Counted from the stretch's first letter, positions 3,574 to 43,898 are shown. The stretch: 64,000 nucleotides of DNA from a virus (IMGVR_UViG_3300023196_003068:1-64000), one strand, 5' to 3'. The notes: a model not told the origin generated them from the letters alone. Translations and numbers: made by a program.

Positions 3574-3859
3574 TATCCGGAACAGGCTTATACACTAAAA
3601 CATCTTGTTCTGCAGCTGCATTTTCAATGCCCATAAGCATAACATACATTAAGTATAGCCTATGCTCTTTTAAAGTAGTAATCTTTTTATTAGATATGTT
3701 ATCTAATATCAAGCCAATACCTGCCTTATCCTCACCTTCAATAAGAAAATTATTGAAGACCGATTTCAGGCTAATATAATAATCACCTATTATTTCAATC
3801 TTAATAACTGAATCCTTGGGAATAGAAGGATATTTTTTAACTTTTAAATCATCACTCAT
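3557..3859 (-). CDS. Small antisense hypothetical protein within the early operon
   Basis: A 100-aa protein on the minus strand, the only minus-strand gene seen left of 23 kb. It is called real because it fills a 285-base gap that has no convincing + strand gene, has ordinary soluble-protein composition and ends in an acidic tail (PDINLDD). Its start codon and that of the UDG-like gene share the tetramer CATG at 3857-3860, so both genes start back to back, and its 3' end overlaps the upstream + gene by 17 bases. No family is recognised. It could be a toggle-like regulator or simply an inserted gene; the alternative is a fortuitous antisense frame. Confidence 0.65.
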   Translation of the reverse strand: MSDDLKVKKYPSIPKDSVIKIEIIGDYYISLKSVFNNFLIEGEDKAGIGLILDNISNKKITTLKEHRLYLMYVMLMGIENAAAEQDVLVYKPVPDINLDD

Positions 3860-4532: not shown

Positions 4533-4559
4533 TAATTCACTATATTGGTAGCCCCTTTT

Positions 4560-22538: not shown

Positions 22539-23096
22539 ATGACTAAATCCAAAATACTAGAAGAATTCACAAAGCACAGGCACGATCATAAAAGCTATGT
22601 GTTTTTATATCCCTTACTACAATTACCAAAAACAATTCTCAAACCTCTAAATACATTTCTATACTTAAATAAAAAGGAAGTGTATAAATATAAATATCTA
22701 TTTGCATTATATCACGAATCATTAGAAAAGATAGAAGAAGCTATGCATATTATAGAGGACAATAACTTTTTTGATTTTAAACTAACAGATAGAGATGGTT
22801 ATATTATAGTTGTATTTATGCTAGAAAACCACTCTATCTATTTTGACAAAATCATGAAAGGAGAATATTCAAAATTAGAGCCTCTTGAAAAGTTATTATT
22901 AAATCAAGCGGGACACCCAATAGCGGCAATAGGTACAAACCCACAACACTTCTATAGGGATTATGCAGACGATATGGACATATCCGAAAGCGACATAGCA
23001 GAAGGGGCTAACTTAATAAACCCTCCTAATATGACTACTGAAATTTTACAAGTAGATAAAAAAGTAATGTCTGACTTTTATAAATACACTAATTAG
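22539..23096 (+). CDS. Hypothetical protein, last gene of the + strand module
   Basis: A 185-aa protein, mostly helical, with a KSYVFLYPLLQLPK start and an acidic region (DDMDISESDIAEG) near the end. No family is recognised. Its TAG stop at 23094-23096 overlaps the TAA stop of the giant minus-strand gene by two bases, so the two transcription units run into each other without an intervening terminator. Confidence 0.6.
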   Translation: MTKSKILEEFTKHRHDHKSYVFLYPLLQLPKTILKPLNTFLYLNKKEVYKYKYLFALYHESLEKIEEAMHIIEDNNFFDFKLTDRDGYIIVVFMLENHSIYFDKIMKGEYSKLEPLEKLLLNQAGHPIAAIGTNPQHFYRDYADDMDISESDIAEGANLINPPNMTTEILQVDKKVMSDFYKYTN

Positions 23097-26000
23097 TATG
23101 GGAAGGCTTGTTCGCTTTCAATTCCATCTGCTGGAGATATTAAATTTCCATTATAACCAAGCAGCTTACTAAGAATAGCATGCGTCCATTTCGTCTCCTC
23201 AGATTGCTGAAAGGTATAGGGACCGGCATTTTGTTTAATCTCGGTATCCTTACCTTCAGCCATCTCTTTCATAAGTTGAATAATCAACATTATATCTTTA
23301 TAAGCCCCCTCTTGTGCTGCATTTTTCATCATTAACATATCGCCCATCAGCATAAACCCACGAAAAGGATTAAATGTTTTATTTTCTCTTTCCACCCTTA
23401 GACTCAATCTTAAAAATTGAAGTTTCCAATAATCTGTCCAGTCCATATCTGCCCAGGGATGAGCATCTGCTCTACGAGCATCTGCTATCCAGGGAAGATT
23501 TGGCAAAGATGTTGTATTTTTTAAATCCATTATCATACCATCTCTATCTTGTCCTTCCACTAATTCACCATCTAAATTATAATAATTATAAGTAAAAGCT
23601 CTATCGTCATCATCATCATTAAACCTTAACCATAAATGAAACTGATCAATAAGCATATTTACAATACTTGCCATTACAACCTGCATAACAGCAGTTTTAC
23701 GCCCTTGATTTCTCCAAATAGAAGTCAAACGAGAACCTGTAACATTTCCTTGAGATATATCTTTAAGACCAAAAAGCAAATCCCTACCGGCTAAAGCCGC
23801 CTCAATAAATTGACCATATTCTGCTGTTTGAGTATACCAATCAAATCTTCTCTGAAACCTATCCCTCTTACTTGTTTGTTGAGATCTAGTTCTAACTTGA
23901 TAACGATCTAGAGTCATACCCGGAAGAAATCGCATTACAGCAAACGCTGCTTTACCCGTTAAAGTTCTATTAACAAACTCAGATTCAGCAGACAGACCAG
24001 CAATACCTGTTGTTTTCTTAAGATAACCTTTATGATGTTTAATAATCTGCTGTATTTTTTTACCTAATACAACACGCCCTTCTTTATCATAGGTAATAGA
24101 ATATTCTTCTGGAACTCCAGCCTTTGTTTGTATCACACCATCAACAAGTTCTATAGCATTATCTAGCGTAGTAAACCTATCAGAGCCCTCCATCTTAAAA
24201 CGATATTTCTTATTATCAAGAAGAGCATACATAGCAGTATAGTTTGCTTCATTCTGTAGATAAGCCCTTATGCCAAATCCTACACGAAGCGTTACCACAT
24301 CTATGACAGATGTACGAGATCCACGCTCTCCAACACTTTGAGCAAGTCTATCAGGACTTGCATCCATAATATCTAAAAATTGCAAGGTAATAGGTTTTGC
24401 AGAAGCTTTATATTGTTGATAAGTAACTACACCAATAGCCCTCTTAGCCTTTAACTTTCCAACTAAAAGATTTTTAGCATTAAAATGACGAGTATCTGTA
24501 ATTTTATAAAGAAATTGAATATTAGCACTCAAATAGTTTGTTACATCAGACATCCAATTAAACATAAACCACTTCCTACTTGAGAGTTTCATGAATTTAC
24601 TAAGAATAACAGCTCTAGCTTTTCTAGATGAATCTTTCTCCCATCGAGATGACAATCTAAGACCTGAAAAATATTGTTCCAAAATATTTCCTACAGCAAA
24701 TGCCCTGTTAGATATTGTATTATCTCTACTCATTTGTTGTAATGTTTTCGTTCTATTCTTAATTCTAGCAACAGTTGGATCTTGAATTTGATCCTTTACT
24801 ATCTGATTAAGAGATTGTGCCAATGAATTTATCTCACCAAGAGATTTAAAAATCTCTACCGAATGTTGATACTTACCTATACTACTAATGATATCAGTAC
24901 TAACTTCATTGACATCAATATCATACATACCGGTAATTGGTCTTGTTAAGGTCTGCATTTGTGCATTGGGAACTTTCAATCCTTGAGCCAAATGATTATA
25001 ACCATACTCAACATCATCCCTTTGAATTCTCCAAATATTTCGAATAGACTCAATTAGTCTATTTGTACCAATGCCCCTTAAAATTTTGCTAGACGTGGAA
25101 TCACCCTTAGCATATCTATTATAAACAGCACCAATACCAATACCCTCTACAAATTTCTTACGAGTTCTAGGGAAATGCAATCCTAATTTTTGAGAATTAG
25201 AAAGATTTGCTTGATTATCCAGATGATGGTTCTTTACATACTGTAATAAATCCCATTTAACACGATTCTTTTCAAACAAATCAAAATACTCCTGATTTAT
25301 GAATCTATCATCCTTTGCTCCATTCTCTACAGTTTTAGGCAACCACTCCCCTTTATTATTTATAGTCGCCACAACAAGTTTACCGTTATCATCTACATAA
25401 TCTCGTTCTATTTTTTTAGTAAGAAACTCATCTTTTACTTTTCGGACTTGATAATTTGAATTAGGAACCCTAGGTACACCATCAAATTCTAATAACCCAG
25501 TAACATTTCCGTCTGAATCCTTTAAAGGGAAGGCTTTGTAAAAATTATCATCAGTTGGACGTGTATATTGCCAAATAGAAGTTTTCATATAAATAATGGT
25601 TGGCTTTCCCTTATCTATAGTACGCTCTGCTTCGTAATGGTTATCGTCAAACCATTGTTTAAACATACTATTTTCTTCTCTAATTATATCAAGCGTACCT
25701 CTAAAACCATCATCTGATAATATAGACTCAAATATATCATCACTTACAATATCTCCACTCTCCCTATCGATATTATATCTCTGATACACCTCATTATCAA
25801 ACATCTTTTTAGTTTTATCATTGGAATCTATGATTTCTAAAAACCTATCTCTATAGAATCCAGTAGAAAAACTTCTTGCCAGTCTACCTAACAAGGTATC
25901 AATTTCTTGAAGTCGAGCGGCAGACGCTTCACTAATGCCAAGAGATGTTAATCCTTTAGCTAACTGCCTAACAAAGTATTTATGCGCTAAAGCATCCTCA

Positions 26001-28993
26001 TTATTTTTATGTTTCCCATGCTTATCATAATAAGAACTAAGATATGCTAACTCGCTGAGTTGATTTTTTGTTAAGCCTAACTTTGTATATAGCTCACCCC
26101 TTGCTTCTTCAATTTTTTCATGAAGATTTCTAATCTTTATTTGAACATCCCTAGTAAGAGTATTACCATTAGAATGGCCCATCGACGTTCTTGCAGGTTT
26201 AGATAACTCATATATCTCCTCATACAAGGGAGTAAGATCGGTTATCTCTATATTCTTTTGTGTAAGCGGTTCAAGAATTTCTGAGCGTTCATCAAGTAGT
26301 TGCTTACGTTCATCATACCATTTATCATCAACCTGTACTATAGTATTATGCTCAATCCACGTATCTATTGCATTTTGAAAAGCCTCTGTTCCTGGAGAAA
26401 GCTTAGGATTTTTTTCAAGAGATGCAATCATATTATCATAAGCATCTTGAAACTTTTCATCATTTGTTGTAGATTCATAAAATGGACGTTGTTTTTCACG
26501 AAACTCACGCAGCCTCTCTGCTATAGCAAGGGCTTCTCCTGTTTTTTTATTTCCTAACTCATCCGTTAAGCTAAATAAATACTCATACTCCCTCCATTTT
26601 TCCTGAAGAGCTTCAGCATTTTCGACATTTATATGGGCATCAAGAGCAACATCGGCTAACTCATCAGCTTCTTCATAAAACTTATCCAAAGCCATACGTG
26701 CTTTTATACCAATATCATCTCTAAATAGTTTCCTAACCTCATATACTTCAGAAACATTAGTTTGGTTCATGAAGTCTGTCTTAAAATCTTCAAGCTTTCC
26801 TCTGGCAATGATATATTCTCTGTGGTTTTTTACCTTCGGATTTCTCCTATATTCTTCCTTAGCGTTGTTAACTTCTTGTTTCAACAACTTTTCTGTATAA
26901 TGATGGCTATCTTGACTCTTTTTGCCATTAAAAGCATTTTGAAATTCCCAAACTTCAAAATTTTCTACCTCTCCTTTATCATTCTCTCTTCCATAATCTG
27001 TAACTTGACCTAACGCTCTTCCTAAATTCCCCTGGCCTACCCATCGTTTAAAATTCCAACCAGTAGCTCTGAAGTGTTCTTTCAAACCATCAAGAAACTC
27101 CGCTTCATTCTTATTGATATTAGCATTGGCCTCATTTAACTTATTCTCTAGAAATGAGAAAAAACTACCCACTATTTTATCCTGAGAATTATTATACCCT
27201 TCATAATATACATTAACCCAGCTAGGATCTAAGGCCCCTTCCACGAGTATTCTTTTAAAATCCTCTATGTTAGGCTTAAACGCCTCCAGGGCCATGTTAG
27301 AAAGTTCTATAAGCTCATTCTCTTCGGGTGTGGATAATTTCTCATCAACTTTTGATAACCTATTTTGTTTACGCTCAAGTACATCTTTACGATTAAGCTC
27401 ATCAACAGTTAAGCCATAATATTCTTTATGCATCTGATTGTATTCAGCGTAATTAGACTCCTTTAACCTTTCTAATTCATCTAAATACATCTTATCGGCA
27501 TTTCCCTGAGCTTCAATCATTTGAGAATAAAGTACATCAGCCACACCATCAATACGCATAACATCAACCTTCTTCTTAAGAGCATAAATCTTACTCTTTA
27601 AGTCAGATAAAAATTCACGTAAGCTACCTTTACCTTCAGGTAAAATCCCTTTTGTTTCTTCAGCAATTAAGTTATCGATATAGTTATACCACTGGTCTAC
27701 ATACTGAGCAATCCCAAACATTGTATCAATACTAGCAGGATCTATAAGTTTTGTTTTAGGAAGAGAATCTATCTTAGCACCAAAAGCATCCATTACAGTA
27801 TCCACTTCTGTTATTGTATTAACAAACATTTGGATTCGCTTTGAAACAATAGAAGCCGCATCTCCATTATTAAGTGCTGCAACATACTCGTCGGTAAGCC
27901 TATCCATCCTTGGTATTGCTTTACGGTCATTAGTATCTGAAGCAAATTTCTCAGCAGCTTGCCTCATTTTTTGTAGAATACCGGTATTATCTTCAGTAAC
28001 AAGACCTTCTGCAAATCTCTCATAAATAGTCCCCTCCCTCATGTTGGCAACCTGAGATTTAATAACAGTATTAAGATCATCCATAATATCTTGAGCCTTT
28101 GAACGAGACTCTTTATTCTGGGCATCCATCATCTTAGTAAACTCCTTTTGAAGCATGATAACATCATCCTTCTTTAAAAGCTCTACATTTAACTTAAAAT
28201 TCTCACCCTGATTAAGCATATCAACAAAATCATGTAATGATGTATCCCCGGATAGCTTTGCTACATTAACAGACCTACCAAATTTCTTACGTAAAAATTG
28301 TCTGATATTGTATATTAATTTATCAAACCAGCTCTTACTTTTAGTTAAAGACTTATCGTTTATATGAGTTAATGCTCTAACAATAGCCTCTTCCATAAAA
28401 AGATTATGATCCTCAACCTTCCCATAGTAAGAATCCTTCTTAAGTTCTTCAACAATAATATTCCCAAAATCTTCTTTAAGGAGATCGGTATATAATTTTT
28501 GCATCAGCTTTGGATTGCTTTTAGAGAGAGCCTTTATTATAGGATGGGAAAATTCATGGAAAATAGTTTCCGGAGTAAACTCCCCTTCAGTAAAATAAAC
28601 GGTTCCTGCTTGATAAAATCCTTTAACATCTATAGAACTATTTCTTAAATCCTTAGACTCTTTTGCAGATACAATTCTATAATCAATCCCTAATTGATTT
28701 GAAAAAGCCTCCATTGCGGACATACTCTCCTTAGTATTCCTTTGAATAATTATCTTTTCAAGATCCCTAATAATGTCCTCCTCTGTTACTTTAGGAACAT
28801 CTTGAGCAGTATCCAGGATTTTTGGAATATCTACATCCATAAATCGATCATTGATTTTTTTCAACACAACGCTTGGTGGACGAACCACTCCGTCTTGTTC
28901 AAAATAATCACGTTCAGCCTCCCTTTCTCCTACAACAGAAGACAGCTTTTTAAATCTATCCTGGTCTACTTTATTTATAATGCAAATTCCCAT
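23093..28993 (-). CDS. Giant virion protein with zincin-like motif (1,966 aa)
   Basis: The last gene of the minus-strand late operon. HEFSHP at residues 146-151 is a zinc-metallopeptidase-like HExxH motif, in a region reading AGTVYFTEG then ETIFHEFSH. The middle is charged and partly coiled-coil. The last 600 residues are richer in aromatic and Arg residues and end in an acidic NDDDDDR block near the C-terminus. The size and place match the giant proteins grouped with the virion RNA polymerase in crAss-like phages. It is probably packaged and ejected with the polymerase; a structural partner role is inference. Confidence 0.65.
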   Translation of the reverse strand: MGICIINKVDQDRFKKLSSVVGEREAERDYFEQDGVVRPPSVVLKKINDRFMDVDIPKILDTAQDVPKVTEEDIIRDLEKIIIQRNTKESMSAMEAFSNQLGIDYRIVSAKESKDLRNSSIDVKGFYQAGTVYFTEGEFTPETIFHEFSHPIIKALSKSNPKLMQKLYTDLLKEDFGNIIVEELKKDSYYGKVEDHNLFMEEAIVRALTHINDKSLTKSKSWFDKLIYNIRQFLRKKFGRSVNVAKLSGDTSLHDFVDMLNQGENFKLNVELLKKDDVIMLQKEFTKMMDAQNKESRSKAQDIMDDLNTVIKSQVANMREGTIYERFAEGLVTEDNTGILQKMRQAAEKFASDTNDRKAIPRMDRLTDEYVAALNNGDAASIVSKRIQMFVNTITEVDTVMDAFGAKIDSLPKTKLIDPASIDTMFGIAQYVDQWYNYIDNLIAEETKGILPEGKGSLREFLSDLKSKIYALKKKVDVMRIDGVADVLYSQMIEAQGNADKMYLDELERLKESNYAEYNQMHKEYYGLTVDELNRKDVLERKQNRLSKVDEKLSTPEENELIELSNMALEAFKPNIEDFKRILVEGALDPSWVNVYYEGYNNSQDKIVGSFFSFLENKLNEANANINKNEAEFLDGLKEHFRATGWNFKRWVGQGNLGRALGQVTDYGRENDKGEVENFEVWEFQNAFNGKKSQDSHHYTEKLLKQEVNNAKEEYRRNPKVKNHREYIIARGKLEDFKTDFMNQTNVSEVYEVRKLFRDDIGIKARMALDKFYEEADELADVALDAHINVENAEALQEKWREYEYLFSLTDELGNKKTGEALAIAERLREFREKQRPFYESTTNDEKFQDAYDNMIASLEKNPKLSPGTEAFQNAIDTWIEHNTIVQVDDKWYDERKQLLDERSEILEPLTQKNIEITDLTPLYEEIYELSKPARTSMGHSNGNTLTRDVQIKIRNLHEKIEEARGELYTKLGLTKNQLSELAYLSSYYDKHGKHKNNEDALAHKYFVRQLAKGLTSLGISEASAARLQEIDTLLGRLARSFSTGFYRDRFLEIIDSNDKTKKMFDNEVYQRYNIDRESGDIVSDDIFESILSDDGFRGTLDIIREENSMFKQWFDDNHYEAERTIDKGKPTIIYMKTSIWQYTRPTDDNFYKAFPLKDSDGNVTGLLEFDGVPRVPNSNYQVRKVKDEFLTKKIERDYVDDNGKLVVATINNKGEWLPKTVENGAKDDRFINQEYFDLFEKNRVKWDLLQYVKNHHLDNQANLSNSQKLGLHFPRTRKKFVEGIGIGAVYNRYAKGDSTSSKILRGIGTNRLIESIRNIWRIQRDDVEYGYNHLAQGLKVPNAQMQTLTRPITGMYDIDVNEVSTDIISSIGKYQHSVEIFKSLGEINSLAQSLNQIVKDQIQDPTVARIKNRTKTLQQMSRDNTISNRAFAVGNILEQYFSGLRLSSRWEKDSSRKARAVILSKFMKLSSRKWFMFNWMSDVTNYLSANIQFLYKITDTRHFNAKNLLVGKLKAKRAIGVVTYQQYKASAKPITLQFLDIMDASPDRLAQSVGERGSRTSVIDVVTLRVGFGIRAYLQNEANYTAMYALLDNKKYRFKMEGSDRFTTLDNAIELVDGVIQTKAGVPEEYSITYDKEGRVVLGKKIQQIIKHHKGYLKKTTGIAGLSAESEFVNRTLTGKAAFAVMRFLPGMTLDRYQVRTRSQQTSKRDRFQRRFDWYTQTAEYGQFIEAALAGRDLLFGLKDISQGNVTGSRLTSIWRNQGRKTAVMQVVMASIVNMLIDQFHLWLRFNDDDDDRAFTYNYYNLDGELVEGQDRDGMIMDLKNTTSLPNLPWIADARRADAHPWADMDWTDYWKLQFLRLSLRVERENKTFNPFRGFMLMGDMLMMKNAAQEGAYKDIMLIIQLMKEMAEGKDTEIKQNAGPYTFQQSEETKWTHAILSKLLGYNGNLISPADGIESEQAFPY

Positions 28994-30104: not shown

Positions 30105-33100
30105 TTAACATATTTCATCTGGTAAACTGTCTATATCTTCTTGAGTAAGAGCCGTTCCCTTATCTTTTTGTTGATCTGTTATATCTATTGTTCTCGAAGG
30201 TGCCTTTGGCATTCCTTCAGTTATATCAGATGCTCTCCTAAAAGTAAGAGTTATTGTGTAATCTTTAACCACCCTTCCGTCAGGAAGAGTAATAGGAGGC
30301 AAATTATTTCCTTTTGTCGGTGCCATAGGTGTATCATGAGCCATTTCAAATCTTCCTTTTCCATCCATTCCAAAAGTATAAATAGTTCCCGATTTTGTGG
30401 GAATTTCAGTTTTTCTACCCGTCTCAGCCCAAGAAGCCAGGCCAGTAGGATTGCCATTTTTATCTATATCCTCATAAATATTAATAGCATTCCCTACACC
30501 AATGGTATATACAACCACCCCATAGTTTCTTGCAGTTTCACTTTCTGTAGTATCTCTATGTGTAGAAATCTTATCACCAGGTAAATAAATATTACCAATA
30601 ACAGCATCATAATTGGACATATCGATTCCTAAAACTTGCTCCACTTCATCAATTATAGGTTGTAATACAGACAAACCAGGTAATGGATTTCCCTTTTGAT
30701 CTAAACCATGATACGCATATTTGAATCCTGTGGATTTAGTAATACCCTTTCTTTTCATTTCTGCAACCTCAGCATCTCTTGATCTTTTATCATATGAATT
30801 AATTTCCAACTTAGGATCAGCATCCAATTCAATACGTGTCCATCTTAATCCAAACTGAAACATTAGATTGGCTCTCGCACCTATATTCTCTTTAGTTGCT
30901 TGAGCTAGAATTTGAGGCTGAATAAGCTTAATAAATTCCTTCTCCTTTTCTATGGAAGGGTTTGTCTCTGCAACATTCACCCCATAGGCATCAGATATAA
31001 CTCTTACTGGGGTCTTAGGTAGCTTTTTCTTGTATAGATCAAGAATATCCTTCCTATTTCCATCAGTAGCTCCCCACTTCATTTTTTTATTAGATGTAAG
31101 AGAGATAATATTTTCCTTTGGAGTTACTAAATATTTAGCACCTTTATAAGCAACCTGAATAGCTTTAGAATTTAATGGAGTTAAATTTTTCTCGCTAAAA
31201 GATTTTTTAGCCTTAGCACCTTCTTCTTTTAAATTAAGAACTTGCCATGTTCCATTAGTATTTTTCTTAACAGCAATGTACGTAATTCCTTTGGAGTCTT
31301 TAACATACCTACCAACTTCTACAGACAGTTTGTCTTCACTAGTTGTAAGCTTACCTTTAAATGTTGCTTTATATACATCCCTAATAGCTTCTTCTGCATT
31401 AGCAGACATGCCTCTACTACCAATAGCTGCAAAATTATTAGTCAAAATAGGTGTATCAATTGACACAAATTTAGAACCATCCCAAGTATACCATCCTTGT
31501 GGTAAATGTGAATCGGCTTTTTTATTAGGATCATTATACACATATACAGGTTTTCCAGCTTGTATAGCCATTTCTACAGCATACCCAGTACCGCCTTGAA
31601 CAGACTCAGATTTGCTAATTTTTCTTTGCTTATCTTCTGGTTTATATGCATCTTCACTCCAAGTATCCCCCTTTTTTCCAATCGGAGCAACAGCAAATAC
31701 AGCTTCTGAATTAGCAACTTGTGCCCAATTTCTTATTAATCTTGAATCAGACATAGTTTTATACGCATAACCCCACATTTCTTTAGCGGCACTAGCTACT
31801 TTTGTCTTGCCATCCGTTTCAATTTGTGTATTTGTTATATCTACATTACCATAAGGTGCATTTGTTTTAGAAACTTTACCTAAATAATAATGATTGAATT
31901 TAATAGCACCAAATTCCTTAGCTATATCATCCCATATTTTATCTGCGCCAAGAGCTCCACCTGAATGAGCTGTAAAATCTTTAGGATTATTTGTACCCTC
32001 CGGTCGGTCTGCTACAACTTTATTATAAGCATTTATTAATGTTTTTAGAAAATGATTCCCTTTATCTGAAGTCCACCATGTACCTTCTCCTTTTTGATAA
32101 GCTTGAGCATCATCTTTTTCATCGTAAGTATGAATAGATTTTTCCAAGAATTCAAGACCGCCCCGCTCTATTATTTTATCAACTAAGAAAGGATACTGAC
32201 GTAGCTTAGCCTCTATAAGATTAGTAATAAGTTCAAGATTTCTCGAAGTTGTACCTCCTTTGCCTTCTTCTCTTAAATCAAAATAAGCTTCTTCTACGTC
32301 TAAGTAAGGCCTTCCTAGTGGATTACCAGCATAGTTAAGACCTTTATCTAGCTGTAGATAAGTTCCTATAAGTTTACCCTTAGATTTTGAAGACTTTCCT
32401 CTAGGATTATAATGAGTAGGATTAGTAAGAGCTGCTCCCAATGGATCATTAGAACCACTAAATATATTTACACCCTTAACACTAGTTGATTGGGAAGGTG
32501 CTACATCATTAATAAAATAATCCAATACAGTAGCGTGAGATGGGCCACCAATATTTTTATAATATTCAATTGGTAAACCTCTTAACTTTCCTTTCTTAAA
32601 AGCCTCTAATAAAGCCGTTCTATACTCTTGCTCCATAGTTGTATGCATTGTGCCTTGAAGCCACCCTATAAATTCTTGAGCTCCTCTTCCTGGTTTATTA
32701 GGATCCGCTGATATCGGATTTCCTATAGCGTTATACTGTTGAAATGATTTTAAGAAACCTAATTTCTTATTAACCCTAAATGCAGTAACAACTTTTTTAT
32801 TCCTAGTATTTTTAAAAATCCTTAAATGACCTGTTGTTTCATCCACTCCTTCTACAATCACAACCTTTCCGCGAATAGTCTTACCCCCAAGCTTATTCCA
32901 TACTTCCATGATTTTAGCAGAAAACTTGTCCTTTCCTACAGAAATACTCTTTTGATTTTTAAGTTTTGCAATTTCGGTATTTCGATAAACAGTCCTAACT
33001 TCCATTAAGACCTTCTCTAACATTGTAGAATATGGACTAACACCTATTTCTATAGGCCCATCAGTATTTGCAAGTCGATCAAAGAAGTCAGATTTTTTGT

Positions 33101-36100
33101 CACCATGATTCTTGAATTTATCCTTTACCTTTTGCTTCATATCATTAGCAACCTCAATAATAGATTCATTCGTTATAAGATCATCAGCTGACCTACTGTT
33201 TATCTCTTTTGAAAGAGCCTCATTAAACAAATAATCTAAGCCAAGATAATCCAACTTAACAGGAGCCTTATTAGGATCAAATAAATTATTTACTGAAAGA
33301 TCTTTGTCATTTGTCCACTCCATGTACTTACCAATTGGAGCATATCTAGGAATCGCTACCCAGCCTTTTTCTTTAAGAAAGTCAGACGCTAATTGCTCAA
33401 TTCCAGAATCTTTAAGACCTATATTAAAACGAGCCCCGGCTTTCATGGCTTTTTTAATTTTAGGTAAATAGTGTGTCTTAAACACTGCTTCAATTTCTTT
33501 TTGATACCCCTCTTCCTTAAGATCATGGGCTTCTTTAGCTCTAAACGTATTGTTACCAAACACCCAAACAACATCCTCTGAGCTAAATTTAGTTTTACTA
33601 TGAGCTAATCGCTCCTTATAATCCCCTGCTTCAATTATTCCTATATATTTAGAAGTAGTACTTCTTGGTATGCCCGAAAGCTCAACATCTTTCCCAATAG
33701 CTACTGTAGAAGCATTAGCCATTGCTTCATCTCTAGAAGTATCCTTTGCTCTTGCTCCCTCGATAGTCGCTATAGATATATTATCTGGTGTTTGACCAAG
33801 AGATAGATCAACGAGATATGGAACTGATTTTCTATTGTCTATACCAAATTCAGTAAGTAGCATTTGATCAAGTTCTTCTTGAATAACACCCTCCGGAGCA
33901 TCTATTTTTCTATCTAGAATATATATCTCCTCTCCTTTTAGTTCTTCTATAAAATCCAAATCAAGGCTATTACCTTTAAACCATTGATGATCATAAACCT
34001 GAATTGAATCAGACGGCAACTCATTAAAATTATTTACAATCTGAACATTATTATACGTCAGAGATTTAACAACATGAGTCTCAATTGTAACACCCAAATC
34101 ATCTTTCATGTAATTTATACCCCTACTCATTATCCTTGAAGCATTCTCCTTGCTAAGAAGCCCATCATATATTGCAGTAAATAGGTCTATATACCCTATG
34201 GATTCTAAAGGAGTTCCGCTTGCCTTAGCTTTCTCTGCCGCCTTCAATGCTCGAATTACTCTCTCTGCTTTAATCCCTTCCTCAATAACATTCCAAAGCT
34301 TATATTGGTTGATGATTTTTGTTAACGCATATTTAGCACCAGTATTTAAACCAGTTTGCATTATAGCCATATTCCCAAACTTATTAAAAAAATCAGCAAC
34401 AGCTGGTATTCTATGAGCTTTAAGTGCAATAAGATTTTCACGATAAATTCTAGCCATATCTGCATCCTTAATATCGGAAAGGAATATATTAGTTTTGCGA
34501 AGATCTATGGCATAATCAAAACGCAAATCTTGTATTAAACTAAAATTTTCACGCAACTCAGGATGCTTTTGCATAAGCCTTCTTAATATTGATGCTCTGC
34601 CCATTCTGAAATCAAACATTGCTACAGGATCATCGGACCGATATAATGCTGCTTTATATAAAAGTGCAACTCTAGTAAATGTCCCACTAGAATAACTATT
34701 AAACTGGTATAAATGTTTTTGAACCTCCTCATTGCTCATATCTTTAGTTTCCTCCTCTAATTTTGCAAACTCTATTGAGAACCGAACAAATTGATTTCTA
34801 CCTCCCGGTGGAAACATTTGGGATAAATCTGAAGATATATAATCCGCACCAAAAAGAATAGTACTAACTCTTTGTTGCGCTTCATCCATCCACTTACTTC
34901 CAAAGGTAATTTTTTTATCCACCTCATTAATAACCAAAGGATCTGAACTCCCCTGAACTTCTTCTAATGCATACCCATCATAGCTTTCTGAATTAAATAA
35001 AGAGTTCTGATATAAGAATAGTGTGAAATCATTCTTAAACTTATTTCTAGTGACTTGTGGGATAATGCCTGGCGGGGAGTTTATTTCAAATGACTTCTCG
35101 ATAACAATAGGATTGTTACGTAAAGCAAAATATTTACTAAACAACTCTATTATAAATTGATCATTATCAAAGATACCAACAGGAGAAAATTCTATTTCGT
35201 CAAACCATAGATTAGGAATAGCTGATTGCTTACTTTTAAACTTAGTAGTTCTTGTTATGCGGTTTGTCGCTTCAGAAATACTCCTTATTTTTTGAGTGTC
35301 AAACTTTGTTAAATCTTGAAATGTCTGAAGGTCTAATGCCAAATCTTCAATCTCAAGATAATGAGAAAATATCTTAAACTGTTCAAAAGAAAAAGCTCCT
35401 TTACCATCTACTGCTTTAAGCCCCTCATCCAACAAGTCTTTAATTACACTAAAGTCTAAATTACCATCTAATAATGCACTAACTTTCTTGTATTCAGATG
35501 CCTTCCATTCTCTTTCATCTTTAAAACCATCTCCCTCTTTAAACCAATCAAACATTGCATACCGAGCCTTGCTTAATATTTTTGACCTCTCCACAATAGG
35601 ACTCACTCCAAACTCATCACTAAGATTACTAAAGACACCAGAAAGCTCTGCCTTTATTTTGTTATACTTAACAATCATTGGCATCGAAACAAAGTATGCA
35701 ATATCCTTAATACTCATTCCGGCCATAACCATAAGCAAAAGCTGTGGAGTATTCTCTTTATTTCCTTGAATTTTAAATATCCATGGGTTAGTTGCAACAT
35801 CTACATACCCATTAACTAATTGCCCAAGAACTTGTGATATAGGTAACCCGTCCATATTCTTAGCCATAGCGAGTGATATTGCACCATTCGCCTTATTGTG
35901 CTTAAACTTAATGGTATAATCAGTAAACTCAAATATAACCTTATTGGCAATATCTATTTGAGCCTTTGTAGATTTATCATTTTCTAATACCTCAATAGCC
36001 TTTGCGTGTTCTCGCTTTTCTTTTTCAGTAGCAGTATTAAGTGTTGCTCCAAATCTTGTAAATAAAGCATAATATGTCGTAGCAATAGCGGCTATACCCA

Positions 36101-39100
36101 GAGCATCTATTCCTATAGAATTATCTTGTTGTTTTTGTAGATTCATTCTATAGTCTAAGACAGTAGACCTTGCTATATCTGTTCCTGCTTCTTTATCTAA
36201 TCGGTTGAATTCATTAAAGCTTTTTTCTATAAGGGCATATGCCTGGTCAGCTAAACTTCTTAAATCAGTTTCTTCTTGAGCTTTAGTTTTACGCTTTTTC
36301 TTTTTTGTCTTACCCTCTACCTTCTCTTCAGTCTTTCCTTCTGTAAATAGATCGGTTTTATTTGGACGAATAAGAGCTTCAAAATTATTACTCATAGTAA
36401 TTCTATCCTTGAAAGATTTTAAAAGCTCATTTTCTAAGCCTCCCATTCCTTTATTAAATAGCTTTCTTAATACTCTTCCCTTTTTAACTTTAAGATCTTC
36501 AGCTTTATCATATAAACCATTAATCTCCGCTCTATAATTATCTTTAATCTTTTCAATTGTTGCGGTTTCCTCTGAAGTAAAAACTATTTCAGCTAGAGCT
36601 ATATCAAGTCTTTCATCAAATACGGCAATACCTTCATCAATAGCCTGTTGTATCTCAGAAATACGCGATGATGTATATGCATGCACATTTCTTTGTTGCT
36701 TACGAGTATAATTTTTAAAATTACCTACACTATTATAAACATCACTTGCATATTGCAAAGTCTCCACCATTTGCATCTCAAGCTTCTCCATTTGAATAGC
36801 ATACTGCGGGAATTTAGCTCTTATAATCCCCTCAATATCTTTAATACTTTCATTAACCTTCTTTAGCTCATTTATTCTTCTTGTTTTAGCATCCTTTATC
36901 TGATCATAAACATCATTTATTTTAGTAGAGTATCCATCAATACTTTTCCCTAACTTCTCAAAACTTTCAGAAACCTTTTTGTGTACCTGCATTTCAACAC
37001 TTCCATTTATTGAAACTATATTTGGAAACATTGTAAACAGCTTATCAAAATCAAAATCTGAACCTGTTTTTGCGACTATCTCTGAAGGGACAACAACGAT
37101 AGGACCAACGGACTCTGGTAAGAACTGCTTAACTACCATTGCCTCTAGTGTGTTTTCTTCTGCTGTAGGTATACGTGGCCCTGCAATAGTAAGCATATCT
37201 TCATACTTAGCGAACCATTCCTTGTCACGCAAAGCACTATTTAATCGAGCTAAAGAAGCCTGACTATCTATAATGTCCTTGCCTGACTTAGCATCCTTTA
37301 CTCTTACAGTAATATCTTGACCATCGGGATGCTTTAATTTTAATAGATGCTTGAATTTACCTTGAAGGCCAATCTTAACCTCCATCTTAGATATCTTATA
37401 ATCAGCCCAAGCTCCCTCTCTTTCGTCTTTTATAAAGTTCCCATCTGCATCTTTTAAGTAGTAACTCTTAAGATCTCCGGCACTTAATATATCTCCAAAT
37501 TTTTCTATGTCTTCTGCTGTAGGCCCTTCAAAAGATTCCTGCATTGCTCCAGTAACCTGAACCAAAGGCTCACCATTAACCTCTATTCCCCGAAGCTTCT
37601 TGTCAACCATTACTGTAAGAATCTTCTCTATTTTTTCAGCAACCAAAGAAATAGATAAATCATCTATCATTTCTCCACTACCATCCTGTTTTGATATAAA
37701 CTGAACCTCTTCTGGAAGTAAATCTTCTTTCTCTAATTGTGATTGAATATAGATTAATAGCTTTTTTGTATCCCCTTTATAAGTTTTTTTCTCTTTACCT
37801 TCAACCCAGGTAATTTCTTCTTCCATTCCTATATCAAAAAGTAAATCTTCTTTAAGTTTTACTTCCATCCGATGAAGAATATCCTCATAGTTGGTTAACC
37901 ACTTGTAATTTGGAGATTTATTCTCTTGTTCTTTTTCAGATAAACTATCCCAATTTTCCTCTATAACTTTCCATTGCTTTGCAGTACCATTAAAATCAGT
38001 CGGCACACCACCCTCCATAATGCCCAATAGAACTAATTTTCTCCATTGTGTTGGCAGTGTAGTGTAGCCCTTATATCCACTCTGAGTTCTAATCTGATCC
38101 CTAAGCCACCTAACATGAATTTTATTTATAGTAAAGGGAGCATCTGTTATTTCTCTTTCTTTGTTGTAAACATCATCAGCCTTAGCATCTTCTATCGCAT
38201 TTTTATTTATACTACCATCTGAATTTTTTCCTTTTATAGTTACAATAGTGGAAAGTTTAGAGCCTGTCTCCATGGTAACATAATGAACACCATCTTCCAT
38301 CATTTTTTCATGAAGCTTTTCTAATTTAGTCCCTGCATAAGCAGTAGGAATGATTGGTGCTAATGAGTACTTATGAAAGCCCCTCATCTGTAGACCATAA
38401 TTATTGTTATCTTCATTTGAGATGTTCCCATTGTATTGAAACTTCCTAACAGGAAACGTAACCTTTAAGTCTGCCGGCTCAAGAGTCTCTCCCTTAAGGA
38501 TTTTTTGATAAACAGACTCCTGGCTAGCCTCACCTGTAGTCGTCCAATTATTAGAAGCCATCGATAGGATCCGATATGTATCAAATGTTATCCATCCTTG
38601 AGCATCAGCCTCCTCTATTCCTTCATAATTTTCTTTTTTAGTACCACCCAGTTTTTCGTATTGGTCTTTAAAATAAGAATCATGCTCAGACTCTTTAATT
38701 ATTCCTGTATTTAAATGACCATCAAACGTAGTCTCCTTAAATGTTTTGCCAATTGCCTTCATGTGCTTTTTGGCAAACCCATTCATTTCAAATACATTAT
38801 TTTTCTCAGTGTTTATATAGTTATACCAGCTTTGATCAAACCGAAACATGTCTCCTGTAGAGATAACCCCCGCATTACGTTTGTGGAAATTTCCAGCTGC
38901 AACTTCATAAATGGCTAAATCTCCAACAAACATTGTAACATAGTTAACATTGTTGATGTAATTGTTTATGATCATTGCCCTAAACATCCTCTCCTTAGTA
39001 GTGGCTACTTCTTCTTTATCATTTTTTCGATACTCTTCAATCTTATTTTCTGCAATTTTAACGTCTCCCTTCTCCTTAAGTAGCTCCTCAGATCGTTTTT

Positions 39101-42100
39101 CAAAATATCTTTTTAAGTCTTTTTCAATTTCCTTTTTTTCCGAAAAAGAAAGCGTAGAATCTAATGTAAAAGATGTATCAATATTTCTTTCCAAAAGTCT
39201 CTTTTGTACATCATCGCTTAACAATAAATCAAACATGTGAAGATCCTCTCCTCTTTCTAAAAATCCCTTATCAAACTTAACGGTCTCACCCTTTTCAATA
39301 CGAGCCTTGATAGCCTTAATGCGTGCTATACGAACTAACTCCCCCTCCAGGTGTCCTTGAAATTGATTATATAGTATTAATGAATTAATCGGACTCTTAA
39401 GGTCGTCATACTCTTCAGAAAAAATATGATTTATCTCATTCATACTTACAACCAATCCTTTTCGTGGATTAATTTCTCCTTTAACTTTAACCGGAGCAAA
39501 TACAGTAGCAGATGTAGCCTTTGCTTCAGATCGTGGTATCTCCTGACGAGCCGCCAATGTTAAATACATATCAGATATAAACTTGGTATTCTCATCTGAT
39601 GAAATAGCCTCTATTCCTTTTTCTTCTCTTCCATACCTTACCTTAGAGCCTGATAAAGTTTCATGTGTAATATTAATAGCTGGATTACGCTCCCCTCTTT
39701 TATCACCTTCAATATCCAATTGAAACATTTGAATAAACCAAGTATTACCTGCTATAGCCGGATTAGTTTCAACATTAAATCCCTCCATACCAGGAATGCC
39801 TATTAATTCATCATAACTCTTTGCGTTATTTAAGGTAGCAGCCTGGATTGTCATCGATGAATGCTTCGTCTTTTCAGACATGCGTTCATTATTTGCATTG
39901 AATTCAGTAAAATTTACATACTCATCAGAAAGATGTTGTGCTAACTGTACGATTTGTTCATAATACCCACTAACATCTGGCTGTGTTCGCTTCTCATTAT
40001 TGGGGTCTATATAATCAAATGATTTAAAAAGACTCTCAAGGTCGTATATACGAGAAACTTTCTCCGAAGCAAACTCACCTCGTAACTTAATGGATTCTAT
40101 AATATAGTGAAGAACCCCCTTACCAATTCCCAATTCCTCATACCCTTTTTCAAGAGCATCTCTTACCTCAATGGTTTCAGGTAACTCAATTCCTATAATC
40201 TTTAATAAAGGAAAAGGATCTGCCAACCATTGTTTGCGATGAAAAGGTTCGTAATCATAATTTACATCTTTTTCTTTGTGAAACAACTCACCAGATGCAT
40301 TTATAGGAACATGAACCATAGTTTCAAAGCTCTCTATTACACCCATTAAATCATAAGTTTCTAGGTATTGACGATTATCTGCTTCATCTGTTGCGTAAAT
40401 AGACCATTCGTTTATTTCAGATTGATTTCTAAAGTTATCCCGCCATTGTCCTTTAATGATTGCAGCATTCCCTTTTGGCTTACCTACAATTGACTCCCAT
40501 CGAACACTCTCAGTCGCTTCATCTTCTATCTTTTCTAATGAATGATAAGTAAGACGATTTGTTGCTTTAGCTATAGATTGCCACAATGCTCCCCACTGAA
40601 CTTGCTCAACTGTTTTAATATCCGCAGATTGCAAATCACCCATTACCTTTAGCACCTGTCTTATTTCATGGTCAAACTTTGCTGCTTCTTTAAGTGCGTT
40701 ATAAATATCATCTGCATCTACGCGATTTCCTACTATTTTAACAAGCTTCCCTAATATTGTCTTAAAAGGGAGTGGCTGCGGAAGACCCAGGCGATTTGGT
40801 TTATATTTATCACTTCTTCCTTGTCTTTTATATGAAGGAATCCCACTCAATAAATGTCGGGTAAGATCATTTGCCGACTCAGTAATTGAAAATTCAGCTC
40901 CCGTCCGATCAAAAACATGTCTTAAGCGAGCATCTGTTTCATCATCCGTAAGCTCCTCAATATTTTGAACCTCCTCATTGAAAGTGTAAAAATCAGCATA
41001 GTTGTTTAGGAATAGTCCAATTATTGTATTATTGTCATCTTTAAAAGTATTAATCGAAGCTTCGGTATCTCCAAAAGAATCTAAAATTTTATCCAATAAT
41101 GCCACCTTCTCAGCTTCCACTATAGATAAAACATTCATCCCGTTCATGTATATTTGTCGCTTTGTTTTAAATACATTCTCCATGTACTTAAAAGCTGCTG
41201 CTAAAATAGAAGGCTCTTGCACAACTCTTAAATATCCAAGACCATTCCTAATACTAGTCTTTCCCAGGTGACCATCAAGTAACTTATTTGCTTCTTTATA
41301 GTTTTTATTAAACTCAGGATCGCTTACATCTAAAGATGATAACTGGGTAAGCAATTCAATCGCTTTTAGATTTGACTCAGGAGTAGCTCCTGTATTTAAT
41401 GCTGTTACTACAAATCTATGCATCAATGCTTTCATTGATGTCATGGTTATATTAACATCATCAAAACTTAAATCTACATCCTTCCCAAGCTCAAAGCTAG
41501 AGTAATATGTTTCCGGATCATTGGGAATCTCAAATTTAGATATATCAATATTTCCTTCGTATAAATCTTTAAAGATGGCATTAACTTTTGGGCCAAACTT
41601 ATTAAGAGTAGTAACTTCGTTTACTGTTGTTTTACCAAAGAATTTTTTTAATTGAGCCAACAACTTCGCAAAGAACTTAGCAACTTTAGATTTTGGCTTT
41701 TTATTAAAGGCACTACGATTAGTAGCATATTTACGAAATTCCTCTGCTAAATACTCTTCTATTTCTAAATCTGTAGCATCTTTAAAGTTTAATGTCTTAG
41801 CCTTTCCTAAAACCGTTACTGTAAATTGACCACCAAGACCCCTAACCTCTTTATAAATTTCAGCAACTTCCTCTTTAGTTAATATGGAATCAGTAAGACC
41901 ATGCCATGATTCATGGTATATATCTGTTTTTTGCGAACCAGAATATAGTGTAATTAATCCCGCTATATAATCAGCCACATATTTTGGTCCCTTTTCATGA
42001 ACCTTATCCTTAATTTGAAGGCGTATAACTTTTCTTAAAGGATTATCTTCTGATTTCCACCATCTATCTGCAGCATCATCTTGTTCTTTAGTAGATTTTC

Positions 42101-43898
42101 CTCGTTTGTTATGCTCCGATATTGTTCTAAAAAGTAAATCTTTTGCTTCTTCGTCGGTTTTTTCTTCTATCTCCGTAGATGCCTCTATAGAGGAAAATGA
42201 TAAATAAGAACCATGGCCTCTAATCTCTCCTTTATCATTGGGAACTTGTGTAATATAACCATTATCACTAATAAACGCTGCTCTATCTTTTTCGACTATT
42301 GTTATTTCATTATCCTTAATAGAACCTACAACCCTAACCTTATCTGTTAATGTTACCCCACGATATAAACCAAAATTAATTTCTGGTTTACGAGCCATCA
42401 TTATTCTATCCCCATCTCTAAATATTTGATTATGAAAGGTTACATTCTCTAATCCATTTACAAGCTCATAATCTTTAGGAAGATCTTGATGATAATCAAA
42501 TGGTACAAGCTTTTGCGTCCACTCAATAAAGGTTTCTTTAAAATTCTCAAAATTAACCGGAGAACCATTCCTGAACACGATTGCCCTAGAATCACCCAGG
42601 ACTACTGATGTAATTCTTATGCCATCATCTTTAATTGTAAAAGGTATCTCGTGTTTTATATTGCTACTCGCTCTAAACTGAATAAAATTAGTAATAAGCC
42701 TTTTCCTTTCAATTAATGGCAAAGGATTACCATCTATTTTTAAATCAGGATTTACTATTAGCTCTGCAATATAATCAAGTTCCTTTTCGGATAACTGATC
42801 TAAAGGTTTATTGTGTATTCTAGCAGGTGCCGATGATCTAGGAACTTTCAGTACTGGAAAATTGGATTTACCTATAGATGCAATAGTCAGCACAGTCTCA
42901 CTAATATTTCTAATACTCCCTATAGGAGTTTGTGTATTGTGATCCCTTGCAACAAACCCGATGCTACTAGCATTCATGTTTAAATGAAAGAATACATTTT
43001 TCTCAGCCAAAAGCTTTCTTGAAGTATTCAACATTGCGATATGATTATCTATCTCTGCATTAACAAGTTTTGATGCATCCTCCGGGCTTAATGGTTCTTC
43101 TTTTCTATTCACAAGTGAATCAATTTTAGATTCAATAGTTACCTTATACTCAGCCTTGCTTACTCTTATAGGAAAAGCAGGAATCTTACCATTAACATCA
43201 GGGTTTCCTTGTTCATCGAACTTAACTATATTGCCATCCTTATCAACTAACACCATCACCGGGCGAGACAAATCATCCTTTGGATACTTATAACTAATAT
43301 CAGAGTTAAGATTAGCTTGTTCAATGGTCATCATTTTAAACCTATACCCCTTGCTATTGTTAGAATTAATTACAGAAGTCTGAACAGCAATTTCAAATAC
43401 CTTTTCCTGGTCTGGTACATTCTTGGAATATTGAAAATCTGCATCCCACTCAGACTCCTGGCTAATAGTCTTAGCAAAAGAACGAGATATTGCGTTATAC
43501 GAAAGAGGAGCCATTGGTGCTACTGTAATGCCGCCAACTCCTAGTGAGCTAACTATACCAGTAATTATGTTCTGAAAGTCCTCTTTAGATGGTTGTTGAG
43601 AAGCCTTATATATCTCAGTTCTTTTTTTGTTTATCTCTCCAACAAGAGTCTTCTCATTAATTGCCGGGTTCTTTAGGATATACTGCGTAAGTATTTCAGG
43701 CAGAATTGTGAAGTGCTGAATAAGAGTTTCTTGATTATCAAGCTTAGTCTCAGATAGATTAAAATCCTTAAGGGCTTTCTGATAAAGTTCTCTTTGAATT
43801 TCATCATACGTCTTCTCGTTGGAAATTATATTCTCCAAATTATTTGTGAAGTAAGTCCCAAAAAGATTAATTGACCTAGAAGTTATACAAACATTCAT
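30105..43898 (-). CDS. Giant virion RNA polymerase with C-terminal enzyme-like domains (4,597 aa)
   Basis: Central region: DxDxD at D2281, D2283 and D2285 in KTGSDFDFDKLF, preceded by a PRIP then FLPESVGPIVVVPSEIV run, matching the catalytic beta'-type barrel of RNA polymerases and of crAss-phage RNAP (family of phi14:2 gp66). Near 662 lies HESWH, a zincin-like motif. The C-terminal third has, in order, a SLOG-like segment (GLKDSGIEQLASDFL, near 3500), a DUF4326-like GNPI...GPSHATVLDYF (3720-3790), a NADAR-like stretch (about 3815-3955), a YspA/SLOG domain with SGGALGADKIW (3978 on), GGTGYAVEMAI and AAIGSRG (near 4158), and an AlkB-type oxygenase: HRD near 4447, AHD near 4521 and a later FRR. 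It overlaps the upstream stop as TAATG. Roles outside the polymerase are inferred. Confidence 0.82.
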   Translation of the reverse strand: MNVCITSRSINLFGTYFTNNLENIISNEKTYDEIQRELYQKALKDFNLSETKLDNQETLIQHFTILPEILTQYILKNPAINEKTLVGEINKKRTEIYKASQQPSKEDFQNIITGIVSSLGVGGITVAPMAPLSYNAISRSFAKTISQESEWDADFQYSKNVPDQEKVFEIAVQTSVINSNNSKGYRFKMMTIEQANLNSDISYKYPKDDLSRPVMVLVDKDGNIVKFDEQGNPDVNGKIPAFPIRVSKAEYKVTIESKIDSLVNRKEEPLSPEDASKLVNAEIDNHIAMLNTSRKLLAEKNVFFHLNMNASSIGFVARDHNTQTPIGSIRNISETVLTIASIGKSNFPVLKVPRSSAPARIHNKPLDQLSEKELDYIAELIVNPDLKIDGNPLPLIERKRLITNFIQFRASSNIKHEIPFTIKDDGIRITSVVLGDSRAIVFRNGSPVNFENFKETFIEWTQKLVPFDYHQDLPKDYELVNGLENVTFHNQIFRDGDRIMMARKPEINFGLYRGVTLTDKVRVVGSIKDNEITIVEKDRAAFISDNGYITQVPNDKGEIRGHGSYLSFSSIEASTEIEEKTDEEAKDLLFRTISEHNKRGKSTKEQDDAADRWWKSEDNPLRKVIRLQIKDKVHEKGPKYVADYIAGLITLYSGSQKTDIYHESWHGLTDSILTKEEVAEIYKEVRGLGGQFTVTVLGKAKTLNFKDATDLEIEEYLAEEFRKYATNRSAFNKKPKSKVAKFFAKLLAQLKKFFGKTTVNEVTTLNKFGPKVNAIFKDLYEGNIDISKFEIPNDPETYYSSFELGKDVDLSFDDVNITMTSMKALMHRFVVTALNTGATPESNLKAIELLTQLSSLDVSDPEFNKNYKEANKLLDGHLGKTSIRNGLGYLRVVQEPSILAAAFKYMENVFKTKRQIYMNGMNVLSIVEAEKVALLDKILDSFGDTEASINTFKDDNNTIIGLFLNNYADFYTFNEEVQNIEELTDDETDARLRHVFDRTGAEFSITESANDLTRHLLSGIPSYKRQGRSDKYKPNRLGLPQPLPFKTILGKLVKIVGNRVDADDIYNALKEAAKFDHEIRQVLKVMGDLQSADIKTVEQVQWGALWQSIAKATNRLTYHSLEKIEDEATESVRWESIVGKPKGNAAIIKGQWRDNFRNQSEINEWSIYATDEADNRQYLETYDLMGVIESFETMVHVPINASGELFHKEKDVNYDYEPFHRKQWLADPFPLLKIIGIELPETIEVRDALEKGYEELGIGKGVLHYIIESIKLRGEFASEKVSRIYDLESLFKSFDYIDPNNEKRTQPDVSGYYEQIVQLAQHLSDEYVNFTEFNANNERMSEKTKHSSMTIQAATLNNAKSYDELIGIPGMEGFNVETNPAIAGNTWFIQMFQLDIEGDKRGERNPAINITHETLSGSKVRYGREEKGIEAISSDENTKFISDMYLTLAARQEIPRSEAKATSATVFAPVKVKGEINPRKGLVVSMNEINHIFSEEYDDLKSPINSLILYNQFQGHLEGELVRIARIKAIKARIEKGETVKFDKGFLERGEDLHMFDLLLSDDVQKRLLERNIDTSFTLDSTLSFSEKKEIEKDLKRYFEKRSEELLKEKGDVKIAENKIEEYRKNDKEEVATTKERMFRAMIINNYINNVNYVTMFVGDLAIYEVAAGNFHKRNAGVISTGDMFRFDQSWYNYINTEKNNVFEMNGFAKKHMKAIGKTFKETTFDGHLNTGIIKESEHDSYFKDQYEKLGGTKKENYEGIEEADAQGWITFDTYRILSMASNNWTTTGEASQESVYQKILKGETLEPADLKVTFPVRKFQYNGNISNEDNNNYGLQMRGFHKYSLAPIIPTAYAGTKLEKLHEKMMEDGVHYVTMETGSKLSTIVTIKGKNSDGSINKNAIEDAKADDVYNKEREITDAPFTINKIHVRWLRDQIRTQSGYKGYTTLPTQWRKLVLLGIMEGGVPTDFNGTAKQWKVIEENWDSLSEKEQENKSPNYKWLTNYEDILHRMEVKLKEDLLFDIGMEEEITWVEGKEKKTYKGDTKKLLIYIQSQLEKEDLLPEEVQFISKQDGSGEMIDDLSISLVAEKIEKILTVMVDKKLRGIEVNGEPLVQVTGAMQESFEGPTAEDIEKFGDILSAGDLKSYYLKDADGNFIKDEREGAWADYKISKMEVKIGLQGKFKHLLKLKHPDGQDITVRVKDAKSGKDIIDSQASLARLNSALRDKEWFAKYEDMLTIAGPRIPTAEENTLEAMVVKQFLPESVGPIVVVPSEIVAKTGSDFDFDKLFTMFPNIVSINGSVEMQVHKKVSESFEKLGKSIDGYSTKINDVYDQIKDAKTRRINELKKVNESIKDIEGIIRAKFPQYAIQMEKLEMQMVETLQYASDVYNSVGNFKNYTRKQQRNVHAYTSSRISEIQQAIDEGIAVFDERLDIALAEIVFTSEETATIEKIKDNYRAEINGLYDKAEDLKVKKGRVLRKLFNKGMGGLENELLKSFKDRITMSNNFEALIRPNKTDLFTEGKTEEKVEGKTKKKKRKTKAQEETDLRSLADQAYALIEKSFNEFNRLDKEAGTDIARSTVLDYRMNLQKQQDNSIGIDALGIAAIATTYYALFTRFGATLNTATEKEKREHAKAIEVLENDKSTKAQIDIANKVIFEFTDYTIKFKHNKANGAISLAMAKNMDGLPISQVLGQLVNGYVDVATNPWIFKIQGNKENTPQLLLMVMAGMSIKDIAYFVSMPMIVKYNKIKAELSGVFSNLSDEFGVSPIVERSKILSKARYAMFDWFKEGDGFKDEREWKASEYKKVSALLDGNLDFSVIKDLLDEGLKAVDGKGAFSFEQFKIFSHYLEIEDLALDLQTFQDLTKFDTQKIRSISEATNRITRTTKFKSKQSAIPNLWFDEIEFSPVGIFDNDQFIIELFSKYFALRNNPIVIEKSFEINSPPGIIPQVTRNKFKNDFTLFLYQNSLFNSESYDGYALEEVQGSSDPLVINEVDKKITFGSKWMDEAQQRVSTILFGADYISSDLSQMFPPGGRNQFVRFSIEFAKLEEETKDMSNEEVQKHLYQFNSYSSGTFTRVALLYKAALYRSDDPVAMFDFRMGRASILRRLMQKHPELRENFSLIQDLRFDYAIDLRKTNIFLSDIKDADMARIYRENLIALKAHRIPAVADFFNKFGNMAIMQTGLNTGAKYALTKIINQYKLWNVIEEGIKAERVIRALKAAEKAKASGTPLESIGYIDLFTAIYDGLLSKENASRIMSRGINYMKDDLGVTIETHVVKSLTYNNVQIVNNFNELPSDSIQVYDHQWFKGNSLDLDFIEELKGEEIYILDRKIDAPEGVIQEELDQMLLTEFGIDNRKSVPYLVDLSLGQTPDNISIATIEGARAKDTSRDEAMANASTVAIGKDVELSGIPRSTTSKYIGIIEAGDYKERLAHSKTKFSSEDVVWVFGNNTFRAKEAHDLKEEGYQKEIEAVFKTHYLPKIKKAMKAGARFNIGLKDSGIEQLASDFLKEKGWVAIPRYAPIGKYMEWTNDKDLSVNNLFDPNKAPVKLDYLGLDYLFNEALSKEINSRSADDLITNESIIEVANDMKQKVKDKFKNHGDKKSDFFDRLANTDGPIEIGVSPYSTMLEKVLMEVRTVYRNTEIAKLKNQKSISVGKDKFSAKIMEVWNKLGGKTIRGKVVIVEGVDETTGHLRIFKNTRNKKVVTAFRVNKKLGFLKSFQQYNAIGNPISADPNKPGRGAQEFIGWLQGTMHTTMEQEYRTALLEAFKKGKLRGLPIEYYKNIGGPSHATVLDYFINDVAPSQSTSVKGVNIFSGSNDPLGAALTNPTHYNPRGKSSKSKGKLIGTYLQLDKGLNYAGNPLGRPYLDVEEAYFDLREEGKGGTTSRNLELITNLIEAKLRQYPFLVDKIIERGGLEFLEKSIHTYDEKDDAQAYQKGEGTWWTSDKGNHFLKTLINAYNKVVADRPEGTNNPKDFTAHSGGALGADKIWDDIAKEFGAIKFNHYYLGKVSKTNAPYGNVDITNTQIETDGKTKVASAAKEMWGYAYKTMSDSRLIRNWAQVANSEAVFAVAPIGKKGDTWSEDAYKPEDKQRKISKSESVQGGTGYAVEMAIQAGKPVYVYNDPNKKADSHLPQGWYTWDGSKFVSIDTPILTNNFAAIGSRGMSANAEEAIRDVYKATFKGKLTTSEDKLSVEVGRYVKDSKGITYIAVKKNTNGTWQVLNLKEEGAKAKKSFSEKNLTPLNSKAIQVAYKGAKYLVTPKENIISLTSNKKMKWGATDGNRKDILDLYKKKLPKTPVRVISDAYGVNVAETNPSIEKEKEFIKLIQPQILAQATKENIGARANLMFQFGLRWTRIELDADPKLEINSYDKRSRDAEVAEMKRKGITKSTGFKYAYHGLDQKGNPLPGLSVLQPIIDEVEQVLGIDMSNYDAVIGNIYLPGDKISTHRDTTESETARNYGVVVYTIGVGNAINIYEDIDKNGNPTGLASWAETGRKTEIPTKSGTIYTFGMDGKGRFEMAHDTPMAPTKGNNLPPITLPDGRVVKDYTITLTFRRASDITEGMPKAPSRTIDITDQQKDKGTALTQEDIDSLPDEIC

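Follow-up and report, generated by a model that had tools for sequence, protein, structure and literature searches.

Candidate ADP-ribose- and nucleic-acid-directed enzyme modules fused to a giant crAss-type virion RNA polymerase

Results

The stretch of viral DNA analyzed here, IMGVR_UViG_3300023196_003068:1-64000 (the window), comprises 64 kb of a 74,408-base IMG/VR record and encodes an RNA polymerase (RNAP) of 4,597 amino acids (aa) that carries accessory modules. This is the length given in a preliminary description of the window. The open reading frame (ORF) is uninterrupted, running from 30105 to 43898 on the minus strand, where all features given below also lie unless marked (+). Its nearest annotated relative is the RNAP gp66 of phage phi14:2, which it matches in two segments (E = 4e-6). 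SDFDFDK at residues 2280-2286 lines up with the invariant DxDxD of crAss-type RNAPs in an alignment that includes gp66, and the catalytic motif itself, DFDFD, occupies residues 2281-2285 (37044..37058). Judged by these sequence features, the protein is a crAss-type RNA polymerase. It continues for 2,303 residues after the catalytic motif, versus approximately 805 in phi14:2 gp66, which is 2,180 aa long and, unlike the 4,597-aa protein, has none of its five modules. These modules are, in order, Rossmann/SLOG-like, DUF4326-like, NADAR, SLOG and AlkB. This order is the one first described, and the motifs quoted then are in place to within one residue (GIEQLASDFL at 3499, SGGALGADKIW at 3979, HRD at 4447, AHD at 4520 and FRR at 4553). 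The C-terminal location was also correct, but the modules fill the last quarter of the protein and not its last third.

When the whole protein was scanned, Pfam returned AlkB only (E = 0.0036, under the Pfam cut-off) and PHROG returned module 4, the second SLOG, only (PHROG 768, E = 1.3e-6); identification of the others required relatives from IMG/VR. Scans of IMG/VR with SLOG, NADAR, AlkB and module 1 alignments yielded more than 200 loci, over whose ORFs hidden Markov models (HMMs) were run. HMMs built without the 4,597-aa protein recovered all five segments in it, with E values from 6.5e-80 to 2.1e-13, and gave at most one match in hundreds of shuffled polymerase sequences. Single-segment tblastn searches of deposited phages found no match except for module 4, PDB sequence searches found nothing for modules 1-4, and a PADLOC scan found nothing.

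Module 5 (residues 4302-4570; 30189..30995) is the most firmly identified by sequence, as an AlkB-type 2-oxoglutarate (2OG)-Fe(II) oxygenase. Enzymes of the AlkB type take alkyl groups off nucleic acids and require O2. PF13532 matched 12 of 12 AlkB relatives (best E = 2.4e-24); taken by itself, our module scored 1.5e-4, which is under the curated cut-off. The module matched AlkB (4.7e-7) and 5xeg (1.9e-12) in the PDB and was recovered by its independent HMM at E = 6.5e-80. Its key residues are H4447, D4449, H4521 and R4554. None of three different queries for the AlkB family of these polymerases matched anything among 50,697 deposited phage records, so this family is apparently known only from metagenomes.

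Module 3 (residues 3804-3962; 32013..32489; HMM E = 2.5e-34) appears to be a divergent NADAR. Against a profile of E. coli YbiA and phage NADARs, hhalign gave a probability of 97.4% (E = 9.6e-12, 112 collinear columns); the positive control, gp30.3 with YbiA, reached 96%, and unrelated profile pairs gave 1.4% or less. Compared with gp30.3 alone, the module scored 11%. The curated Pfam model PF08719 matched 0 of 16 records and, in another scan, 1 of 7 members (E = 0.046). By sequence alignment, the module keeps E, Y, K3898, GG and H3923 as candidate active-site residues.

Module 4 (residues 3969-4183; 31350..31994), with the motifs SGGALGAD and GGTGYAVEMA, is by its sequence a member of the SLOG superfamily (PHROG 768, E = 6e-10; HMM E = 1.2e-59). 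Its relatives matched the cpYpsA, YAcAr, DprA and LDcluster4 Pfam models weakly, each in different members, and Pfam gave no match to the module of the 4,597-aa protein itself. In deposited phages, the module was found inside the N4-type virion RNAPs of two phages, Pylas of Klebsiella and PT15-A5 of Alteromonas; homologues also lie close to the C-terminal end of giant proteins in the gut crAss phages cr109_1 and cr130_1. The SLOG-bearing giant genes of the latter two (L004, L005) read through TAG, as expected of stop-recoded crAss phages. Flavobacterium, Paenimyroides and other genomes likewise encode SLOG-module homologues (L313-L329). In Flavobacterium antarcticum, the homologue (L317, 5974-6771) is a standalone gene near ORFs that by eye resemble a WYL regulator and an integrase; these surroundings are perhaps a mobile or defence island.

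Modules 1 and 2 are less securely assigned. Module 1 (residues 3384-3541; 33276..33749; HMM E = 4.7e-27) belongs to a family of 14 sequences with the pattern DvVWVFGSG ... FNVGtasGiDxmAxdYL. Its AlphaFold2 (AF2) model is a confident alpha/beta structure with a predicted local distance difference test score (pLDDT) of 81. A Foldseek search with this model returned no SLOG, the best matches being methyltransferase-like (E = 0.03), and we call the module Rossmann/SLOG-like only, the SLOG call coming from the motif. Identification of modules 1 and 4 as DprA was unsupported, since hhalign of each against the other or against E. coli Smf/DprA gave 0.3-0.4%. Module 2 (residues 3741-3798; 32505..32678; HMM E = 2.1e-13) is DUF4326-like: PF14216 matched 7 of 13 relatives weakly (best E = 5.9e-4), and the module itself had no match.

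The domain identities first proposed were thus mostly borne out, for AlkB, NADAR and the SLOG of module 4, with DUF4326 weak and the first SLOG a motif only. The fold classes differ in how firmly they are assigned: sequence establishes AlkB and profile-profile comparison NADAR, weak Pfam matches point to DUF4326 and the module 4 SLOG, and module 1 has only a motif and an alpha/beta model.

The residues expected at the active or ligand sites are conserved. The HxD...H iron ligands of AlkB are present in 58 of 58 sequences and the 2OG-binding Arg in 57 of 58 (the other has a gap). In the SGGAxGxD motif of SLOG relatives, S is kept in 79/84 and D in 82/84, and GGTG is conserved too; GG and H are kept in 40 of 41 NADAR relatives. 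The AlkB H, D and H, the SLOG D and the NADAR H lie outside the patterns used for searching, and the strongly conserved sequences indicate that the catalytic residues are under selection. A loss of ligand-site residues in all relatives, which the preliminary description had named as evidence against these domains, was looked for; because the residues are kept across relatives, no such loss was found.

Fusion of the modules to crAss-type virion RNAPs is real and recurrent among the IMG/VR relatives. An assembly artefact as its source was ruled out, as many contigs independent of one another show the same fusions. The modules are joined mostly at the C-terminus and at times at the N-terminus (L153, L111). 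Among 111 non-redundant polymerases, 11 had no module, 57 had one, 37 two, four three, one four (L142) and one, the 4,597-aa protein alone, the maximum of five. This sample was picked by the modules themselves, so prevalence cannot be read from it. Relatives do not keep the order seen in our protein, as 19 different multi-module orders were found among the 111.

A second sample was collected with the RNAP motif alone and consisted of the 80 best matches to our polymerase, a non-random set of which 70 were non-redundant. Of these 70, 19 had one or more of the five modules, and every module match in these loci lay inside the polymerase ORF, with zero outside. In the tails of this sample (L231-L310) we also observed DUF7831 (13/56), an SF1/PIF1-like helicase (5), ART-PolyVal (2), a cpYpsA SLOG (1) and a zeta toxin (1).

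The modules have been exchanged between phages. Those nearest to our own occur on different phages: SLOG at 68% identity (L013), NADAR at 67-68% (L093, L094) and AlkB at 63% (L140, L141). In their RNAP cores, L013 and L141 share 29% identity with our protein (for L093 the core comparison spans just 98 residues), and the closest cores, L176 (41%) and L201 (40%), bear AlkB modules only 30% identical to our own. Overall, modules reach 60-68% identity between phages with cores at about 30%. Similar modules on dissimilar cores mean that the modules move separately from the polymerase.

Between modules 4 and 5 lies a short conserved linker domain (residues 4193-4300; 30999..31322) with homologues in L165, L178 and L146. 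Toward the N-terminus, a zincin-like metallopeptidase region (41529..42101) with homologous regions in the fetched loci contains HESWH at residues 662-666 (41901-41915). HExxH is kept in 117 of 139 distinct proteins with the homologous N-terminal region; since shuffles of the 4,597-aa protein produce HExxH by chance in about 6%, the evidence here is this conservation and not the lone motif. The region may be a self-processing peptidase.

Discussion

The 4,597-aa protein shares with the crAss-like virion RNAPs (phi14:2 gp66; crAss001 gp47/gp49/gp50) the DxDxD motif, the gene block and the genome position. Flanking ORFs of 2,169 aa and 1,966 aa sit at the positions of phi14:2 gp67 and gp65, the former weakly similar to its counterpart in sequence and the latter without a match. 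The downstream 1,966-aa protein of this block (23093-28993) has a second HExxH (HEFSH) at its residue 146. In the phi14:2 record, gp65-gp70 are annotated from tandem mass spectrometry (MS/MS), and the crAss001 RNAP proteins are virion cargo by mass spectrometry (MS) and are modelled as being ejected, partly unfolded, ahead of the DNA (PMC10172136). By analogy with these homologues, the 4,597-aa protein is probably packaged and injected.

Giant, multi-domain proteins that are predicted to be injected, and whose enzymatic domains are shuffled, are already known as polyvalent proteins, described in phages and conjugative elements by Iyer et al. 2017 (PMC5512222), and N4-like RNAP is counted among their member domains. 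Our protein resembles them in having several enzymatic domains in one chain; its injection we infer. Zincin-like peptidases are the commonest polyvalent-protein domain, and autoproteolytic release has been suggested for one neighbouring domain (PMC5512222). An ART-PolyVal domain also occurs in tails of related polymerases. SLOG, NADAR, AlkB and crAss are absent from the text of that paper, whereas the carrier here is a crAss-type RNAP.

On balance, and with modest confidence, we lean towards reading the protein as a polyvalent injected polymerase that carries early counter-defence enzymes directed at ADP-ribose and nucleic acid. A counter-defence or signal-blocking role would be reasonable from the module families. 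NADARs can undo the ADP-ribosylation of guanine in DNA; phage versions remain active, among them a gp30.3-type enzyme in vitro (PMC11125620). PMC9503650 proposes, as a role not assayed, that SLOG, NADAR and DUF4326 of DNA viruses counter diffusible ADP-ribose signals. The polymerase would be packaged in the capsid and would enter the cell before the DNA or together with it, following the example of crAss001 and phi14:2. Its core would transcribe early genes, and the C-terminal modules would work during the first minutes of infection, possibly freed after entry by the N-terminal zincin-like peptidase. NADAR would hydrolyze N-glycosidic adducts of ADP-ribose, or else related small molecules. SLOG would bind or cleave signals consisting of ADP-ribose or nucleotides, with the DUF4326-like domain perhaps processing the products, and alkyl or methyl groups would be stripped off nucleic acid by the AlkB oxygenase. 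Exchange of cassettes between phages is expected if host defences select the module set.

Several observations weigh against this counter-defence interpretation. Of the polymerases sampled by RNAP core and complete at the C-terminus, 49 have none of the five modules, so no module is essential. Our NADAR has R3876 where 36 of 41 relatives have K. The Pfam models PF08719 and PF10686 fail to reach the 4,597-aa protein or most relatives. AF2 models were obtained for module 1 and at pLDDT 80.7 for modules 2-4, but Foldseek gave no meaningful match with either, and confirmation of the folds thereby failed. The account originally offered is supported in part: the identities mostly stand, the fusion stands, packaging is supported through homologues (phi14:2 gp66, crAss001 MS), and a constant order among relatives does not hold.

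Two other functional explanations seem unlikely to us. The tethered AlkB and NADAR might rid incoming phage DNA of base adducts, be they alkyl or methyl groups or ADP-ribosyl-guanine, at the very place where the fused polymerase has to read it, while SLOG and DUF4326 handle the products. Such cleaning of the template would fit the confinement of the modules to the polymerase and to no other virion protein in the RNAP-core sample, the in vitro reversal of guanine ADP-ribosylation noted above, and AlkB profiles that match nucleic-acid demethylases. However, the polymerase may be merely a convenient injected carrier, and no role at the template is known for SLOG or DUF4326. Improbable for now, too, is an extension in which the virion RNAPs of environmental crAss-like phages would serve base-adduct erasers as a mobile docking platform, NADAR and AlkB cleaning the template at first transcription, with cassettes swapped to match defences and possibly freed by the peptidase. 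Alternatively, SLOG and related domains might detect NAD+ or ADP-ribose signals of the host and adjust the activity of the injected polymerase by allostery. One SLOG family is indeed joined both to crAss-type RNAPs and to the unrelated N4-type virion RNAPs of Schitoviridae (Pylas, PT15-A5), and PMC9503650 proposes that SLOG domains fused to nucleic-acid enzymes act in sensing. We doubt this explanation, as modules that can occupy either terminus and vary widely in order are unlike a conserved allosteric layout, and the invariant AlkB catalytic residues indicate enzymes. Least probable of all is that the modules are decaying or neutral remnants of chance fusion: they are missing from most sampled polymerases, our NADAR has R in place of K and the SGGA motif has been lost from the SLOG of PT15-A5, but catalytic residues are kept across strongly diverged copies, the long ORF is intact and many phages have modules of these same families.

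The counter-defence reading would bring two known themes together on a crAss-like virion polymerase, injected polyvalent proteins and viral ADP-ribose/nucleotide-signal enzymes, and this polymerase is carried by very abundant phages. In the available portions of two papers on viral NAD+/ADP-ribose domain networks (PMC9503650, PMC7824862), the domains are typically standalone outside the polyproteins of eukaryotic RNA viruses, and fusion to a virion RNA polymerase was not found there. We found no report of SLOG, NADAR, DUF4326 or AlkB on a crAss-type RNAP in a literature coverage from which most papers behind subscriptions were missing, the one on the phi14:2 structure among them, which makes this weak evidence. 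Among the closest known arrangements is the Schitoviridae (N4-like) virion RNAP of Pylas, which has the same SLOG family inside the protein, 36% identical to module 4. It differs in being an N4-type single-subunit enzyme, with the SLOG at residues 984-1158 and no AlkB, NADAR or DUF4326 detected. Because the module set varies by phage, these polymerases form a natural series for asking which host defence each module answers.

Elsewhere in the window, an ORF at 3816-4532 (+) resembles a uracil-DNA glycosylase by eye.
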